In this document: positions 13,056-20,213 of the stretch, piece by piece | Layout: every line of letters starts with the position of its first letter | How positions within the stretch are numbered: position 1 is the stretch's first letter | IMG/VR virus record: IMGVR_UViG_3300030451_003017 | Location: 1 to 31,180 of that record | DNA: 31,180 nt | From: a virus | Strand: one strand, 5' to 3' | Made by a program: the position numbers and the translations under genes | The notes under the pieces: model-generated | Seen by the model: only the letters and a program-made list of their open reading frames with translations | What the model was told of the DNA's origin: nothing | Databases searched by the model: none

Positions 13056-13073
13056 TGTAACAAATTGTGTGAT
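13056..13073. promoter_or_regulatory. Possible degenerate operator or promoter for the GTG-started gene
   Basis: Read on the minus strand, the segment ATCACACAATTTGTTACA resembles the operator at 16869-16885 (both share ACACAATT) but is a poorer palindrome. On the same strand TACAAT lies just downstream, at 13054-13059 overlapping the site, and TTGAGA lies 19 bases before it. This gives a weak promoter candidate with the operator in the spacer. Confidence 0.3.
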
Positions 13074-13467: not shown

Positions 13468-14370
13468 CTAAACTTTTTCTAATTTTTTCCACTCAGCAGA
13501 GTTAATCATATCTACAACTGAACTCTGTCTGTCTTGCTCAACCATATACTTTTTGGTCTCATCCTTTTGAATATCATTAAGATGAGTAGACCATGCAGTT
13601 GCTGATTGATATGCACACCATAGAGAGCCTTTAGCACCTTTTCTGCCATAATCACCCTGACCATGAATTTGTGTGACTTCTTCGTTGTATAAACCCATAA
13701 GAACAGATAACTGCTTCTTATTGATTTGATTTACACCTGCTAACCTAGAACCTGCAGATAATTTTTGCTTGGCAATAGTTTTGCTAAACATATCTGCAAC
13801 ATAGTCATCTTCAACTTTAGTATCCCACCATCTGTTAAATCTTTCTGTTTCATCAGTAACAGATTTGACAGCAGATTGTATCTTCTTATTTGATTGCTCA
13901 ATATCAAAAGACTTAGTGTGCTTACTAGCAGTATAAGCTAACTTTTGACCAGATACTAATGTATTGAAGCAAACATGATTTAACCAACCAAAAAATGCCT
14001 GAAACTTCCATTTACCATTGTAACTATTTCTGGCAACATATTTTAAAGATAAATCATGCTTACCAATTTTAGTATTATGGTCTTTGAAAACCACTTCCAT
14101 TTTAGCCATTGCTCCATTCTCGAATGAATCCAATTTCATTTCTGCATTATTAAAAGAAATACCTGCTTGCTTTATTTTTTGTAAAGCACCATCAAAAGCA
14201 TCAACATGATTAATAGGTCTGTACTTTGACTTGATAATACCTAAAGCATCATCAGTATCAGTCCTTACAATCTTCTGAGCCATTTCTCTAGGGATTGTAG
14301 GTATCTCTTTGATAGAGATAGGAAAATTTAATTTTTCCATTTCTTCTTTATAAAATTTTGTATCTAACAT
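13468..14370 (-). CDS. DUF932 phage/plasmid-like protein
   Basis: The 300-residue product matches the DUF932 family pattern: an N-terminal RTDTDDALGIIKSKYRPINH segment (about residues 36-55), a mid region with MKLDSFENGAMAKMEVVF, a SLKYVARNSYNGKWKFQAFF segment, and a C-terminal LWCAYQSATAWSTHL region. Members are found on phages and plasmids; their biochemical role is not established. It has a good AGGAG site before the ATG and is the last large gene of the minus operon before the lipoprotein. Confidence 0.8.
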   Translation of the reverse strand: MLDTKFYKEEMEKLNFPISIKEIPTIPREMAQKIVRTDTDDALGIIKSKYRPINHVDAFDGALQKIKQAGISFNNAEMKLDSFENGAMAKMEVVFKDHNTKIGKHDLSLKYVARNSYNGKWKFQAFFGWLNHVCFNTLVSGQKLAYTASKHTKSFDIEQSNKKIQSAVKSVTDETERFNRWWDTKVEDDYVADMFSKTIAKQKLSAGSRLAGVNQINKKQLSVLMGLYNEEVTQIHGQGDYGRKGAKGSLWCAYQSATAWSTHLNDIQKDETKKYMVEQDRQSSVVDMINSAEWKKLEKV

Positions 14371-15087: not shown

Positions 15088-15117
15088 ATTATATAATTAT
15101 AAAAAACCATAAGTCAA
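15088..15117 (-). promoter_or_regulatory. Strong sigma70-like promoter for the 204-residue gene
   Basis: On the minus strand, TTGACT (15117-15112) and TATAAT (15093-15088) are 18 bases apart. The predicted start is about 22 bases before the ATG. The leader carries TTTTATATATATAAAAAC and GGGAGAAAATT, almost the same as the leader at 16827-16860. Confidence 0.7.
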
Positions 15118-15133
15118 CACTTATTGTGTAATT
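15113..15133. promoter_or_regulatory. Operator-like palindrome overlapping the -35 element
   Basis: The plus-strand sequence GTCAACAC-TTATT-GTGTAATT is an imperfect palindrome with the same CAC-N5-GTG core as the site at 19927-19949 and with the same GTGTTGAC arm containing the -35. It also overlaps the last codon of the upstream 430-residue gene. A dimeric repressor here would block the promoter. Confidence 0.55.
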
Positions 15134-16424
15134 ATTTTAAGTTATAATCTTTTTCCACAATACCTAACTCTTTCTTGCCAACAACACAGTCTTTAACCCA
15201 TGTTTTTTTGACCACAGAGCCGTTTTCATCACGAAAGTGTCTAAAGTGACCTCTTCTATCGTGTTGCCTCTTAGGGTTGCCTTTACCAACGAATTTAGAC
15301 CTAATTACTTTTCTGACCTGATTGTTGGATAAATTAATGTCCAGAACTTTATATTCATTCCTAGGCACTCTTCTTCCAAGCTTAGTATGAACAATCTTAC
15401 TATCAGGCTGAACCACTCTTTGCTCATGTAAGTTTTGATTGATGATTGAAAACAGAGATATCAAAAATCTGGCATCACCTTCACAACTTGTCATCCATTG
15501 CTCTTCATGGAAAGTCATTTCATCTTTACTATAGCCTTTTTCAAAATGACCTTTTGGTATTTGCCAATGCATAGCTGAAGATTGAGCAGGAGATATTCTA
15601 TAGCATATTTCTTTGTAGCAATTCCACTCATGGTTATTGTCATAAGAAACTAGCTCCCTTGCTCTATCAATATTTATTTGCATGTTATTCCTAGTTTTAG
15701 TTTCAACATTATATTTCTTAAAAAACTTAGGAGGCATAAACTGCATTAAATACCAACCAGATAATAATTTAGAACCAACACCTAAACATTTTATTTTCAT
15801 TGCATCTTCAGACATTTCATCAAGCCACTCTGGAGGAAACTCTTTGAGTTGCATCTGCTTTGCTATCTCATCTTTAAAACTTGGTGTGTGATTTCTAATT
15901 ACTGCACACATGCTTGTTGTGTAAAATTTATTGATAAAAGCTTTATTAAAAGCATCAGCATCAAAAGATTTACTTGGGTCTTTCTTTGTCCTCTCATCAA
16001 TAAAATACCATGATTCATATAAGTTATAATTATCTCCAATAGGGTCAGTAAAGTTTTTGATGTGATAGCCAAGCTTATCAGGATAATCATTAATATCAGA
16101 TGGATATTCTCTATCAGGTCTTCCTTCCCAATATTTTTTTACATATTCCTGCCTAGCTAGTTCATCCCATTCAATCCAAACATTATCAAATGGCATATGT
16201 AAATTATCTAACATCTCCAACATAACTGATGGTTTTTGAGTTGAAATCTCATAAGCCTTTTCAACTATTGAATTAGTAATAACAAACTTCTTGGCATTAA
16301 TTAGCTCAAGTTGCTTTTCTCTAATCTTGGCATCTGCAATAGACCCTCCTTGGTAGAGGGCTATTGCTCTTTTAGGCTGAGATAATCCTGAGATTATCTC
16401 TGAACATAAGATTGGTTTAGTCAT
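15132..16424 (-). CDS. Large conserved phage protein of unknown function
   Basis: The 430-residue product has no nuclease, ATPase or polymerase motif I can recognise. Visible landmarks are NLHMPFDNVWIEWDELAR (about residues 73-90), CYKEICYRISPAQSSAMHW in the middle, and a C-terminal HDRRGHFRHFRDENGS followed by KKTWVKDCVVG. The His/Arg-rich H-x-x-RGHFR-x-F signature and the N-terminal WIEW motif recur in alphaproteobacterial phage proteins of similar size located in early regions. A GGGAGA site precedes the ATG. It is a candidate for host takeover or DNA metabolism, but nothing proves it. Confidence 0.7.
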   Translation of the reverse strand: MTKPILCSEIISGLSQPKRAIALYQGGSIADAKIREKQLELINAKKFVITNSIVEKAYEISTQKPSVMLEMLDNLHMPFDNVWIEWDELARQEYVKKYWEGRPDREYPSDINDYPDKLGYHIKNFTDPIGDNYNLYESWYFIDERTKKDPSKSFDADAFNKAFINKFYTTSMCAVIRNHTPSFKDEIAKQMQLKEFPPEWLDEMSEDAMKIKCLGVGSKLLSGWYLMQFMPPKFFKKYNVETKTRNNMQINIDRARELVSYDNNHEWNCYKEICYRISPAQSSAMHWQIPKGHFEKGYSKDEMTFHEEQWMTSCEGDARFLISLFSIINQNLHEQRVVQPDSKIVHTKLGRRVPRNEYKVLDINLSNNQVRKVIRSKFVGKGNPKRQHDRRGHFRHFRDENGSVVKKTWVKDCVVGKKELGIVEKDYNLK

Positions 16425-16635
16425 TATACTTCTCCCAAAATTTATTATAAATCTCTATAATTACATCATTAAAACCACAATGACTTAGATTAGGACATCC
16501 AGAGTATTGCGATTTATAAAGCTCATAGGACTTGCCTATTGCCTCCTCAATGTGGTCAGAGTTGGCAACTATCTTTGGCACTTCTACATCAAGGAACTTA
16601 TTACCTTGTTGCTCTAAAAAATTACTCATTCCCAT
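16417..16635 (-). CDS. Hypothetical 72-residue protein
   Basis: The ORF has a good GGAGG site 6 bases before its ATG and shares TAATG with the upstream stop; it overlaps the next gene by 8 bases. The product is helical and acidic, with two cysteines (SGCPNLSHCGFN). An in-frame ATG two codons in is also possible. No family is recognised. Confidence 0.65.
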   Translation of the reverse strand: MGMSNFLEQQGNKFLDVEVPKIVANSDHIEEAIGKSYELYKSQYSGCPNLSHCGFNDVIIEIYNKFWEKYND

Positions 16636-16826
16636 TATTTACCTCCCTTGATAGTTTCACATAATTCTTGAATGTGCATTGGTGCAGTCTTTTCAAAAGC
16701 TTCCACAACCTCTTGCTTTTCATTGATGTGATGTTGAATGAAATTCTTTAAAGCTTCATCATGCAAAACACCAATACCTGCTTTGATTTGCTTTAAAATA
16801 TTTATATCATTTATTAAATCGTTCAT
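16635..16826 (-). CDS. Hypothetical 63-residue protein
   Basis: The product is a small helical protein (LINDINILKQIKAGIGVL, HHINEKQEVVEAFEKTAP) that ends in GGK. It is the first gene after the promoter at 16860-16889 and has a GGGAG site before ATG. No cysteine, membrane or catalytic motif is seen, so its role is unknown. Confidence 0.65.
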   Translation of the reverse strand: MNDLINDINILKQIKAGIGVLHDEALKNFIQHHINEKQEVVEAFEKTAPMHIQELCETIKGGK

Positions 16827-16859
16827 AATTTTCTCCCACGAAAAAGTTTTATATATATA

Positions 16860-16889
16860 AATATATAGTTACACAATTCGTGATGTCAA
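16860..16889 (-). promoter_or_regulatory. Promoter of the 16826-13153 sub-operon
   Basis: On the minus strand TTGACA (16889-16884) and TATATT (16865-16860) are 18 bases apart. The leader contains TTTATATATATAAAAC and GGGAGAAAATTATG, close to that of the promoter at 15088-15117, which suggests duplication of a promoter-leader cassette. Confidence 0.65.
16869..16885. promoter_or_regulatory. Operator-like palindrome inside the promoter spacer
   Basis: The plus-strand sequence TTACAC-AATTC-GTGATG has the CAC-N5-GTG core seen at 15113-15133 and 19927-19949. Here it lies between -35 and -10 instead of upstream. It shares TTACACAAT with the minus strand of the 15113-15133 site. Confidence 0.5.
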
Positions 16890-16890
16890 A

Positions 16891-17094
16891 TTATTTTTTT
16901 ATGTTTATAAATTTTTCTATAAAAAAATGGTCAGTATTCTCAAAATTTTTAAGAATATATTTTTCTGCTTGTCGTTCAGTTTTAAAAGTTATGGGTAATC
17001 CATCATCACCTTCTAACACCTGCTCTGCTTCATATCCTCTCTTGCTATCGACAACAAACAAATAAGTAAGTCTTTTTATTAAGTAAGGCATCAT
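16891..17094 (-). CDS. Hypothetical 67-residue protein
   Basis: The ORF overlaps the preceding stop as ATGA. The product reads as strand-strand-helix (TYLFVVDSKRGYEAEQV, PITFKTERQAEKYILKNF), a compact alpha/beta mini-protein. No catalytic or metal motif is visible. Its stop lies just before the next promoter, so it ends this transcription unit. Confidence 0.6.
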   Translation of the reverse strand: MMPYLIKRLTYLFVVDSKRGYEAEQVLEGDDGLPITFKTERQAEKYILKNFENTDHFFIEKFINIKK

Positions 17095-17420
17095 ATTTTC
17101 ATTGCACGAAAATTTGCATTCTGAGTTCTCCAGATTTCTATTTTAGCTAAAGCTGTTTCTCTAAAAAATTGATTCTTATAATGTTTTTCTGAAGCAATCT
17201 TAACTGCTTTTAAATGTTGAATATAATCCTCATGTGCTTCAGCTTCTCTAGTTTGTGCTGATATGGGCAAGTCACTATACTTTTGCATAAGTTTAGCTCT
17301 GAGTGGCTTTGTAAAAGCATTTAAATAATCTAAATTAGCTCTATCTTTTGCACATTCAACTGCACTCTTTTGTAACCAATCCATAGCTTTGTGAATATCA
17401 TTTTCATTAACTATCTCCAT
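17091..17420 (-). CDS. Conserved small phage protein with IExWRTQ motif
   Basis: The chosen start (17420) has GGAG six bases upstream; an in-frame ATG at 17432 lies within the HNH gene end and a much longer reading to 17567 would overlap it by 160 bases. The 109-residue product is helical, with YLNAFTKPLRAKLM, REAEAHEDYIQHLKAVKIA and a closing KIEIWRTQNANFRAM. The EAxAxxxxxY and WRTQ pattern recurs in early-region proteins of proteobacterial phages near recombination genes; no biochemical role is established. It overlaps the upstream gene by 14 bases. Confidence 0.7.
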   Translation of the reverse strand: MEIVNENDIHKAMDWLQKSAVECAKDRANLDYLNAFTKPLRAKLMQKYSDLPISAQTREAEAHEDYIQHLKAVKIASEKHYKNQFFRETALAKIEIWRTQNANFRAMKI

Positions 17421-17760
17421 CAGGCTCTCCATAATTAAAATTGTGCCAAAGCATTTGAGAAACACCACGACCATAATTCTCTGGTAAATTAAATAAAGTC
17501 CAGAACTTATCTTCATTACCATATTTATCATGTAAAAGTGCGTGATGTTTGTAACACAATGGCACACAGTTATTATCTCTGGCTCTCATTCCCATTCCTC
17601 TAAATCCATCCCAAGGTTTAAGAAGGTGATGTGCTTGAACACCACCTCCACAACTTGATGATACTGTATCTGAAGAATGAGACATAAGACAGCAATTATG
17701 TTTTGCAACATATTCCATAAATGGTTTGTTACTAGCTTGCTTCTTCTTGGATTTCTTCAT
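17407..17760 (-). CDS. HNH-like endonuclease
   Basis: The 117-residue protein has a His-metal finger signature: VQAHHLLKPW (H44-H45), RDNNCVPLC (N63-N64) and KHHALLHDKYG (H72-H73 and H77). The C-x-x-H-H end pattern and the preceding Gly-rich CGGGVQAHH are typical of the small phage HNH-like/DUF968-type nucleases encoded in recombination regions. The product is likely a DNA endonuclease that resolves or trims recombination intermediates. It overlaps the upstream HTH gene by 29 bases without a visible ribosome binding site, so coupling is likely. Confidence 0.75.
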   Translation of the reverse strand: MKKSKKKQASNKPFMEYVAKHNCCLMSHSSDTVSSSCGGGVQAHHLLKPWDGFRGMGMRARDNNCVPLCYKHHALLHDKYGNEDKFWTLFNLPENYGRGVSQMLWHNFNYGEPDGDS

Positions 17761-18040
17761 GTCTTTGTTTTAACATGTAACAAGCAAATGTTTTGTTACC
17801 AAATGTTACAAACTCTGTAACAATATCCATACCCTCTTGTCTTAGCCTATGAATTACTGCACTAAGCCTGAAACAACCAAAAACATTCAAGGCATATAGA
17901 GGTGTAATTAAATTTAATCCCTCCAAATGTCTTTTTATGTTTTCATCTTGTGTAAGATTTTTTGCTTCAGGTGGAGCATCAGACTTACTACTGCTTGAGT
18001 GTGATTTAACATCTTTTAAAATTATATCTTTAATTTGCAT
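17732..18040 (-). CDS. Helix-turn-helix protein (HTH_39-like)
   Basis: The 102-residue product has a Ser/Asp-rich N-terminal third and a C-terminal helix-turn-helix: LNLITPLYALNVFGCFRLSA followed by VIHRLRQEGMDI and a beta-hairpin (VTEFVTFGNKTFACYML). The 'I-T-x-x-x-A-L-x-x-(F/Y)-G-x-x-R-L-x-x-x-I-x-x-L-R-x-x-G' pattern matches the HTH_39 domain (PF14090). A perfect AGGAGG site precedes ATG. It probably binds DNA as a small regulator or a replication accessory protein. Confidence 0.75.
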   Translation of the reverse strand: MQIKDIILKDVKSHSSSSKSDAPPEAKNLTQDENIKRHLEGLNLITPLYALNVFGCFRLSAVIHRLRQEGMDIVTEFVTFGNKTFACYMLKQRHEEIQEEAS

Positions 18041-18050
18041 CTATTCCTCC

Positions 18051-18521
18051 TTAAAATGGTATTTCATCAGTATCTAAATTTGATGTATCAATATCATTGT
18101 AAATACCTTTATCAGATGGGGTGTATTTATTTTTGTTACTATCAGGTTGAGCACTATCAAAAGCTCTTACTTTTAGGCTAGTGTAGTTATTTTTTTCTTC
18201 ACCATTGCCATATTCTTCCTTCCAAGCTGAAATAGTATATCCACCATTATCAACAATATTATTAACAACACCTTTCGCATCTGGGTCTTTTTCTCCAGAC
18301 TTCAAGTTATTTTTTTTGATTGTACCTATCTCACGATAAATACCAACCATACGTTCTCCATCTTTGTTAAACCTAGATATACCCACGATTCGCATCTCAT
18401 TGCCATCAATGTTTAGTTTGCCTTGTTGTATAAGACTAAACTCAGGCTTGCCATCCTTTTTCTTAGGTATTGCCCACAAAACACCACTATTGGTATTGTT
18501 GTATGTTTTACTTTTGTCCAT
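18051..18521 (-). CDS. Single-stranded DNA-binding protein-like
   Basis: The start at 18521 was chosen because AAGGA lies 8 bases upstream; an ATG at 18539 is in the ERF gene. The 156-residue product has a beta-rich body (VLWAIPKKKDGKPEFSLI, KVRAFDSAQ) and the hallmark of SSB proteins, a disordered acidic C-terminus ending in DTDEIPF, which recruits partner enzymes. Location directly after the ERF annealing gene supports a role in coating ssDNA during recombination and replication. It overlaps ERF by 14 bases. The N-terminal domain is not an obvious E. coli-type SSB OB fold. Confidence 0.75.
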   Translation of the reverse strand: MDKSKTYNNTNSGVLWAIPKKKDGKPEFSLIQQGKLNIDGNEMRIVGISRFNKDGERMVGIYREIGTIKKNNLKSGEKDPDAKGVVNNIVDNGGYTISAWKEEYGNGEEKNNYTSLKVRAFDSAQPDSNKNKYTPSDKGIYNDIDTSNLDTDEIPF

Positions 18522-19047
18522 TTGTATTTTCCTTTCCACTAGCTAAATTACCATCATCATCCTGACCTAAACCATATATTGATTGTAGACCATATCTTTT
18601 GGCATAAGTTATTGCAGAACCCATTTTCTGTGGGTCATCTTTATCAGAGCCTTTTATAAGAACTGGAACTCTACATTCAACTACACCAAGAAGAATATGA
18701 TTTACTACAGTTCTAACCCAAATATCTCTTTCAAGAACTTGAGCAGTTGTAATTGATTTAGTTCCATCTTTCATAATGTCTTCTCTTGATTTAGTAACCA
18801 GATGAGTTTCAAACTCAACAAATTGATTAAATTTTAAACCAAATTGCGTTCCTTGATTTACTGCATTTATTACTGAAGTTAAATCAGCATATGTTGATTT
18901 AAAATAAGGATTACTACTATCCTTCAATGCTGTGATGTTTAAATCCTGAAACTTATTAAAAGCTTCAGTTATGTTTTTTGGCATACCTTCTGGCATGCCT
19001 TCATCTACGATAGTTTGGTTAGTAACCACCTTTTCTTCGTTCTTCAT
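18508..19047 (-). CDS. erf: ERF-family single-strand annealing recombinase
   Basis: The start at 19047 was chosen: AAGGA is 5 bases upstream and the ATG overlaps the exonuclease stop as ATGA. The product (179 residues) has the ERF signature (PF04404): an N-terminal helix leading to NPYFKSTYADLTSVINAV, a strand set (VLERDIWVRTVVNHILLGVV), and QKMGSAITYAKRYGLQSIYG followed by LGQDDDGN. ERF proteins form rings on ssDNA and anneal complementary strands, in P22 for genome circularisation. Together with the upstream nuclease and downstream SSB it forms a complete phage recombination module. Confidence 0.9.
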   Translation of the reverse strand: MKNEEKVVTNQTIVDEGMPEGMPKNITEAFNKFQDLNITALKDSSNPYFKSTYADLTSVINAVNQGTQFGLKFNQFVEFETHLVTKSREDIMKDGTKSITTAQVLERDIWVRTVVNHILLGVVECRVPVLIKGSDKDDPQKMGSAITYAKRYGLQSIYGLGQDDDGNLASGKENTNGQK

Positions 19048-19832
19048 AATATTCCTTTCCATGCTTGAACTTTATCTTTTACTTCGTTAATCATTTCTTC
19101 TGACCACTTCCAATCATCTGCATCAGGCAGAACCATGGAAGCTAATTCTTCTTTATCACTACTGATAGATAAGAATTTCATTATACTCATAGCAATGTAT
19201 TTTACTTGCTTCTGGTAAATCTCTATATCTTGTTTGGTTATTTCAAATATTTTATGTTCTTTTGGACTAGCATAAAATACCTCTGACTTTTTATCTTTGT
19301 AATGCATTGCATAAATAGATAGTTGTCTTTTATTTGATGCTGAAGCTTTACTTGGCATTCGTGCTGTTGTTTTTAAATCTACAACTGTATCAGCAAAAAC
19401 AAAGTCAATATAACCTATAATTGGTATTGGCAGGTCTTCTAATTGTATCTCAACCTTTTCCTGATAAGCTTCTAAATCTTCATATTTAAAGTTTCTATTT
19501 ACAACTGAGCCATAGTTTTTCAATTCAATATTTTCTTTGTGTCTTTTTGCATCACCAAAATCAACACCACCAAAATTACAAAGTTCATTAAATTTACTCT
19601 CAGCTACGTCTTGGTCATAAACACCATCATAATATCTTTGAGCCAAAGCATGTTCTATAGAAGTACCTCTATGCATTGAGGCTGACGAATCGCCAGTTAT
19701 CTTAAATAACTTTTCTGCAATGTATTTAGATGGGCTTTGTATCCATGTTGTCATAGAACTATGTGACAACCAAAAAATATCGTGATTAAAAAATGGATTG
19801 TTACTTTTCATTCTTCGTTCTTCTTTCTTCAT
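19044..19832 (-). CDS. PD-(D/E)XK exonuclease (RecB/Cas4-like)
   Basis: The 262-residue product carries the RecB-like nuclease motifs: HRGTSIEHAL (H61 by the long start), IGYIDFVF (D143), VDLKTT (D152-x-K154) and QLSIYAMHY (Q170-x-x-Y174). It would resect dsDNA 5' ends to produce ssDNA for ERF. It is the first gene of the minus operon, right after the divergent control region. No strong ribosome binding site is seen for the ATG at 19832; an ATG at 19811 (MKSNNPFF) preceded by purines is equally possible. The leader contains a long stem-loop (19837-19885). Confidence 0.9.
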   Translation of the reverse strand: MKKEERRMKSNNPFFNHDIFWLSHSSMTTWIQSPSKYIAEKLFKITGDSSASMHRGTSIEHALAQRYYDGVYDQDVAESKFNELCNFGGVDFGDAKRHKENIELKNYGSVVNRNFKYEDLEAYQEKVEIQLEDLPIPIIGYIDFVFADTVVDLKTTARMPSKASASNKRQLSIYAMHYKDKKSEVFYASPKEHKIFEITKQDIEIYQKQVKYIAMSIMKFLSISSDKEELASMVLPDADDWKWSEEMINEVKDKVQAWKGIL

Positions 19833-19836
19833 TTAT

Positions 19837-19885
19837 GTGGCAACCTAAGGAACAATTATTAAGGCGAAATTCTTTAAGTTGCCAC
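19837..19885. repeat. 16-bp imperfect inverted repeat in the early leader
   Basis: Arms GTGGCAACCTAAGGAA (19837-19852) and TTCTTTAAGTTGCCAC (19870-19885) are separated by 17 bases; the outer 8 bases of each arm match perfectly. In the minus-strand RNA 15 of 16 positions pair (one G-U). It lies between the putative minus-strand start site and the exonuclease start codon, so it can act as an RNA stem-loop, a regulator binding site, or both. Confidence 0.75.
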
Positions 19886-19900
19886 GGACTTTATGTTATT

Positions 19901-19932
19901 ATTATATTTATTAAATTAAATTAGTATGTCAA
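19901..19932 (-). promoter_or_regulatory. Minus-strand early promoter (divergent)
   Basis: On the minus strand TTGACA (19932-19927) is a perfect -35 and TATAAT (19906-19901) a perfect -10, but the spacer is about 20 bases, longer than ideal; AAATAT at 17-base spacing is the alternative. It would drive the nuclease-ERF-SSB operon. Confidence 0.5.
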
Positions 19933-19949
19933 CACAAAAAGTGTTTACA
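19927..19949. promoter_or_regulatory. Operator-like palindrome covering both -35 elements
   Basis: TGTCAACAC-AAAAA-GTGTTTACA is a 23-bp palindrome (8 of 9 arm positions match). The left arm contains the minus-strand -35 (TTGACA) and the right arm the plus-strand -35 (TTTACA). A dimer bound here would control both divergent operons, a typical Cro/C1-type arrangement. The candidate regulator is encoded 31 bases downstream. Confidence 0.7.
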
Positions 19950-19972
19950 ACTAAAAAAAATTATTTTATATG
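19944..19972 (+). promoter_or_regulatory. Plus-strand divergent promoter, probably leaderless
   Basis: TTTACA (19944-19949), a 17-base spacer and TATATG (19967-19972) form a plausible sigma70-type promoter. Transcription would start at about 19979-19980, exactly at the ATG of the regulator, so the mRNA is predicted to be leaderless, as for lambda cI from PRM. Confidence 0.55.
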
Positions 19973-19979
19973 TTATTGC

Positions 19980-20213
19980 ATGAGGCTAAAAGAATTTATA
20001 AAATCTAATGGTTATAATAATAAATCTTTTGCTAATGCTTTAGGTACAAAGCTTAGAACTTTAGAAGCTTGGAGCAGAGGTGAGAGATTGCCAAGATGGC
20101 AGGAAGCCAAAAGGATTTTTGCCTTTACTAACAACGAAGTTACAGGTCAAGATTTGTATGACGAACAAATACAGAAACAAGAAACAATTTTACAAAGGAA
20201 TAAAATTCGATAG
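19980..20213 (+). CDS. Cro/C1-like helix-turn-helix regulator
   Basis: The 77-residue product starts MRLKEFIKSNGYNNKSFANA and contains an XRE-type helix-turn-helix: SFANALGTKLRTLEAWSRGE, followed by RLPRWQEAKRIFAFTNNEV. The start at 19980 is preferred over an ATG at 19926, because the 18 extra residues (MSTQKVFTTKKNYFICYC) would be encoded across the promoter. No Shine-Dalgarno sequence precedes it, in line with a leaderless message. It is the first gene of the plus operon and very likely binds the operator at 19927-19949. No lytic-lysogenic partner or integrase is visible, so it is best viewed as an early-to-late switch. Confidence 0.8.
   Translation: MRLKEFIKSNGYNNKSFANALGTKLRTLEAWSRGERLPRWQEAKRIFAFTNNEVTGQDLYDEQIQKQETILQRNKIR

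Follow-up and report, generated by a model that had tools for sequence, protein, structure and literature searches.

A candidate operator shared by early promoters of marine phages and its likely Cro/CI-like regulator

The DNA analyzed here, referred to throughout as the window, is a virus record of 31,180 bases. In the gap separating an exonuclease-like gene from the divergent gene of a small Cro/CI-like HTH protein lies the main operator, an inverted repeat in which each arm contains one -35 hexamer (Table 1). The leftward promoter is predicted to serve the exonuclease, Erf, SSB and further genes, with a -10 that is weak and not clear-cut in the window. On the rightward side, a transcription start 7 bp past the TATATG would make the HTH mRNA leaderless. 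A second operator precedes an accessory gene followed by a DUF932 gene. Searches with the exonuclease and with the 15132-16424 protein gave no useful cultured homologue, and neither Rfam families nor tRNAs were found in the window.

Table 1. Operators, promoters and neighboring genes in the window; promoter elements were read from the sequence.
Feature	Position	Strand	Description
DUF932 gene	13468-14370	-	Downstream of the second promoter, same direction; conserved in relatives
Accessory gene, 204 aa	14445-15059	-	Behind the second operator; no PHROGs function
Promoter at second operator	15088-15117	-	-35 TTGACT 15117-15112, 18-bp spacer, -10 TATAAT 15093-15088
Second operator (candidate)	15112-15134	-	TAATTACACAATAAGTGTTGACT; half-degenerate, one good half-site on the -35 of the 14445-15059 gene promoter
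Exonuclease-like gene	19044-19832	-	First of leftward early operon; phrog_69 / phrog_10230
-35 of leftward promoter	19927-19932	-	TTGACA
Main operator (candidate)	19927-19949		23-bp inverted repeat TGTCAACAC-AAAAA-GTGTTTACA; 9-bp arms, one mismatch
Rightward promoter, HTH/replication operon	19944-19972	+	-35 TTTACA 19944-19949, 17-bp spacer, -10 TATATG 19967-19972
Cro/CI-like HTH protein, 77 aa	19980-20213	+	Likely regulator; PHROGs transcriptional repressor/regulator families, E 4e-5

Relatives of the window were gathered via the primase-helicase, which identified 37 loci in IMG/VR; the same protein found no relatives in GTDB genome contigs, and no host could be named from that source. Among cultured phages, CRP-901 and CRP-902 of Roseobacter are the closest, with 67% identity in the portal protein. 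One relative, G001, comprises 52,883 bases and appears to be a complete genome with circular permutation, because its two ends lie inside the same gene. Measured against G001, roughly 60% of the phage genome would be in the window.

The main operator has by far the top matrix score in the window and is kept in nearly all relatives; in about 25 loci, its distance to the HTH start codon is 29-31 bp. Outside the core group, L030 and L041 retain the arms with changed spacing (GTAAAC-N11-GTTTAC, as opposed to N9 in the window), and L008 has two CAC-N7-GTG repeats upstream of its HTH gene. These spacing variants indicate that the element constant across the family is the outer GTAAAC/GTTTAC, and that CAC/GTG forms the inside of a single dialect. 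Immediately ahead of the exonuclease start codon, the minus strand can also form a hairpin with a 12-bp stem (19836-19886; -20.1 kcal/mol, z -5.2). This hairpin is almost unchanged in L005, L019, L028 and L038, a different hairpin takes its place in the approximately 95% relatives L003 and L004, and an 18-base key drawn from it matched no other viral contig.

The second operator shares its register with the main operator, in agreement with the original prediction that both sites place the -35 in the same arm. With the oriented matrix, whose training set included this site and its orthologues, it scores 21.4 bits. With a matrix built from main operators only, it is the runner-up in the window at 11.8 bits, a score that the best match in a shuffled window equals on average. 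Because a shuffled window reaches the same score, the window alone would not settle whether the second operator is real, and it is conservation in relatives that makes the case. Fourteen relatives carry [AT]AC(AC or C)...GTGTTGA[AC] directly after the stop codon of their 15132-16424 orthologue, a protein that is 46-98% identical among the relatives keeping the site. In L004, the same promoter, with a perfect -10, precedes a 218-aa gene without detected similarity, which stands in place of the accessory gene of the window.

The window and eight relatives, together 374 kb, were searched with a matrix trained on both operators, main and second. The scan returned 27 matches of at least 20 bits, plus one lower match (14.4 bits), while an order-3 Markov null gives a chance expectation at that threshold of 0.005 per 31 kb, or approximately 0.06 over 374 kb. 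None of the 27 was seen in a coding region, with noncoding status judged from flanking sequence and ORF lists rather than by formally calling genes in every record. A third of these matches (nine) fall outside the training set: one each in G001, G003 and G005, two in G004 and four in G002. All nine score at least 22 bits, are judged to lie in a noncoding stretch and have TTGAC or TTGAT in the same arm. Each record contains 2-6 sites, all at promoters, and the type of the left half is uniform within each genome, being CAC in the window, G001 and G002, and CC in G003 to G008.

In combination, these observations support a real regulon, in which one putative operator stands at several early promoters, but its membership differs from that first listed. 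The original prediction, whose quoted sequences are all present in the window, had proposed three or four promoters under one regulator, and had named conservation upstream of the same genes in relatives as the decisive evidence. Such conservation was found for 19927-19949 and 15112-15134, each in more than ten relatives, and these two sites are retained; those at 16869 and 13056 are not. The site at 16869-16885 has the letters of CAC-N5-GTG, yet it scores 6.1 bits and ranks 14th, at background level. The site at 13056-13073 ranks 2128th and is absent from L004. Likewise, the bare CAC-N5-GTG put forward as the operator motif occurs four times against 3.8 expected, as by chance, and a 17-bp IUPAC version allowing three mismatches was uninformative. 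The conserved element is longer than this core and consists of the GT(A/C)AAC outer arms, the GTG and the -35. At 16820-16891, the window has a TTGACA promoter with CAC-N5-GTG in the spacer, a box that is common only to the window's two closest relatives named above, L003 and L004. Several remoter relatives have a TTGACT promoter upstream of the same gene that lacks this box, and in others such a promoter is missing. The box is not a copy of the operator described here, but may be a site for something else.

The extra operators, all in relatives, lie in genome regions beyond the window and, in one relative, in a slot between the g13034-type and g13153-type genes. In G001 to G004, one operator slot adjoins a GroES-like gene; it lies on the other strand from the structural genes, and the small genes behind it have no assigned function. 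Another slot, in G002, contains three operators, and a single small gene stands behind each of them. One of the G002 slots has an operator-fronted gene of 74 aa, which reappears at 64% identity in a different slot of G004. A PHROGs search of the operator-fronted accessory genes found no function. Together with the replacement seen in L004, this arrangement indicates that several of the putatively regulated promoters front exchangeable accessory genes. More tentatively, in these apparently lytic marine phages the Cro-like shut-off operator could be a portable promoter module, in which genes swap behind a constant operator-promoter written in one dialect per genome; although we would not favor this idea at present, newly acquired genes would, if it is true, fall under the phage's own early shut-off. 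In most relatives, an operator-headed islet is closed by a conserved protein of 76-85 aa without known function (L071 6299-6556 and homologues in L061, L063, L066, L073 and L074).

The likely regulator of these operators is the HTH protein at 19980, given its adjacency to the main operator, its uniqueness and its segregating residues. The sole HTH_3-type protein found in each of the nine records is this protein or its homologue. Against the HTH_3 profile, the protein of the window scores 13.2 bits, below the 23-bit cut-off, while its G002 homologue (67% identical) scores 23.6 bits, above it. The structural model has five helices and a mean pLDDT of 75, and its best PDB matches are SinR, DdrO and lambda CI, with probabilities of 0.95-1.0, TM about 0.6 and weak E-values of 0.08 and above; the model is thus consistent with a lambda-repressor-like helical HTH fold. 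Eight residues separate the CAC from the CC genomes (9, 24, 25, 27, 30, 41, 46 and 48), and half of these (24, 25, 27 and 30) are at the turn and recognition helix. This covariation is only suggestive, because the segregating residues make up 10% of the protein, a share no higher than in SSB or Erf, and because the operator type switches only once or twice on the trees.

Taken as a whole, the observations are probably best explained by two operators of the HTH regulator at 19980 that mediate early repression and autorepression. An HTH dimer would bind the symmetric main site, whose arms contain the -35s of two operons, recombination to the left and HTH/replication to the right. The same dimer would bind the second site through a strong half, GTGTTGACT, which includes the -35, and a weak half, ahead of the accessory gene and DUF932. 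Accumulation of the HTH protein after infection would occlude the -35s, turning the early promoters off and limiting synthesis of the regulator itself. With the OR2/PR layout of lambda, a dimer of Cro or CI on the DNA can block PR. The -35 begins 6 bases from the operator centre on both strands of the main site, at the second site and at lambda OR2/PR, and it is because of this equal register that repression with autorepression is favored.

The same geometry can be read in another way, with the HTH protein as an activator, or as a dual regulator like lambda CI at OR2 that activates one divergent promoter while repressing the other. Binding sites of class II activators have their centre near -42 relative to the start. 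At both divergent promoters here, the operator centre has the same spacing from the -35 as OR2 has at lambda PR, and OR2 is also about -42 from PRM, where CI activates. By this analogy, activation of some operator promoters is possible. However, the conserved arms span the entire -35 hexamer, the helix-2 position able to hold an acidic contact varies (N, D, E or K at position 19), and the second and extra sites were each found with a single promoter, so that we consider an activating or dual role unlikely. Still less probable is that the operators are bound by a host protein or by the HTH_39 winged-helix protein at 17732, which the original prediction had named second, after the HTH protein at 19980. 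HTH_39 does occur once in each of the nine records, but its gene adjoins no operator, none of its residues segregates with operator type (in a rough alignment), and L008, without a similar ORF at that position, still has the repeats upstream of its HTH gene. No positive evidence points to HTH_39, and the protein at 19980 fits best.

It is also conceivable that the similarity among the sites reflects the conservation of sigma-70 -35 hexamers plus chance, given that a -35 lies inside every site and that the bare core is no more frequent than expected. This explanation is strongly disfavored, as the upstream half (ACAC or ACC) and the GTG are conserved outside the hexamer. Furthermore, other TTGAC promoters in the same genomes, including that of the 16869 site and its counterparts in relatives, lack these elements, and the nine out-of-sample matches far exceed the 0.06 expected for all matches of at least 20 bits. 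Repression by the HTH protein at 19980 remains our preferred reading of the layout, with binding, repression and timing all proposed from sequence.

Profiles for integrases (tyrosine and serine; PF00589 and PF00239) and for S24-type repressors (PF00717) had no match in the window and eight relatives, several of which, like the window, are fragments; positive controls were detected. CRP-901 and CRP-902 infect Roseobacter of the CHAB-I-5 lineage, and their description reports no lysogeny genes (PMC10149686). Because no integrase or S24-type repressor was found and no lysogeny genes are reported in these cultured kin, the operators more likely serve a shut-off in lytic growth than lysogeny, and the phage, a marine one, is probably strictly lytic. 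In both CRP phages, too, an early operon and the gene of a small Cro/C1-type HTH protein point away from each other, and the gap between them contains an inverted repeat. In contrast to the operator described here, their repeat is TTTACAG-N13-CTGTAAA in both (L050 5730-5853 and L051 5590-5701), and the HTH protein has 60 aa.

The likeness to lambda OR2/PR (NC_001416) extends to an identical core, AACAC-N5-GTGTTGACT, an identical register with the -35 at +6 from the operator centre, the divergent promoters and the small HTH regulator gene beside the operator. Unlike lambda, which has a tandem operator triple, the phages here have one operator per promoter, with the copies dispersed, and the arms are longer and AT-rich (GTAAAC/GTTTAC); a further difference is that neither an integrase nor an S24-type repressor was found in the nine records. 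As lambda OR2 scores only 3.5 bits with the present matrix, the likeness is one of layout and not demonstrated homology. Mycobacteriophage L5, a lysogeny system, has up to about 30 operator or stoperator sites, mostly off promoters (PMC6550527). As in the phages here, a single L5 repressor has many genome-wide sites, with a consensus that drifts with the repressor among relatives (PMC6550527); the difference is that here the sites number 2-6 per record, all stand at promoters, and lysogeny genes were not found. Precedents thus exist for dispersed operators of one repressor, and the OR2 layout itself is textbook knowledge. The distinguishing features are the apparent placement of operators at exchangeable accessory-gene slots, and the occurrence of the lambda OR2/PR layout, in phages where lysogeny genes were not detected. 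No paper on Cro-like early control by lytic phages was found in a literature search. The proposed circuit offers a testable model of control for a group of uncultured marine phages with cultured relatives among the Roseobacter phages, and its operator motif picks out early accessory genes without known function in these genomes. Elsewhere in the window, the protein at 23129-24301 matches phrog_842 (E 4e-51), which is by name a beta-glucosyl-HMC-alpha-glucosyltransferase.
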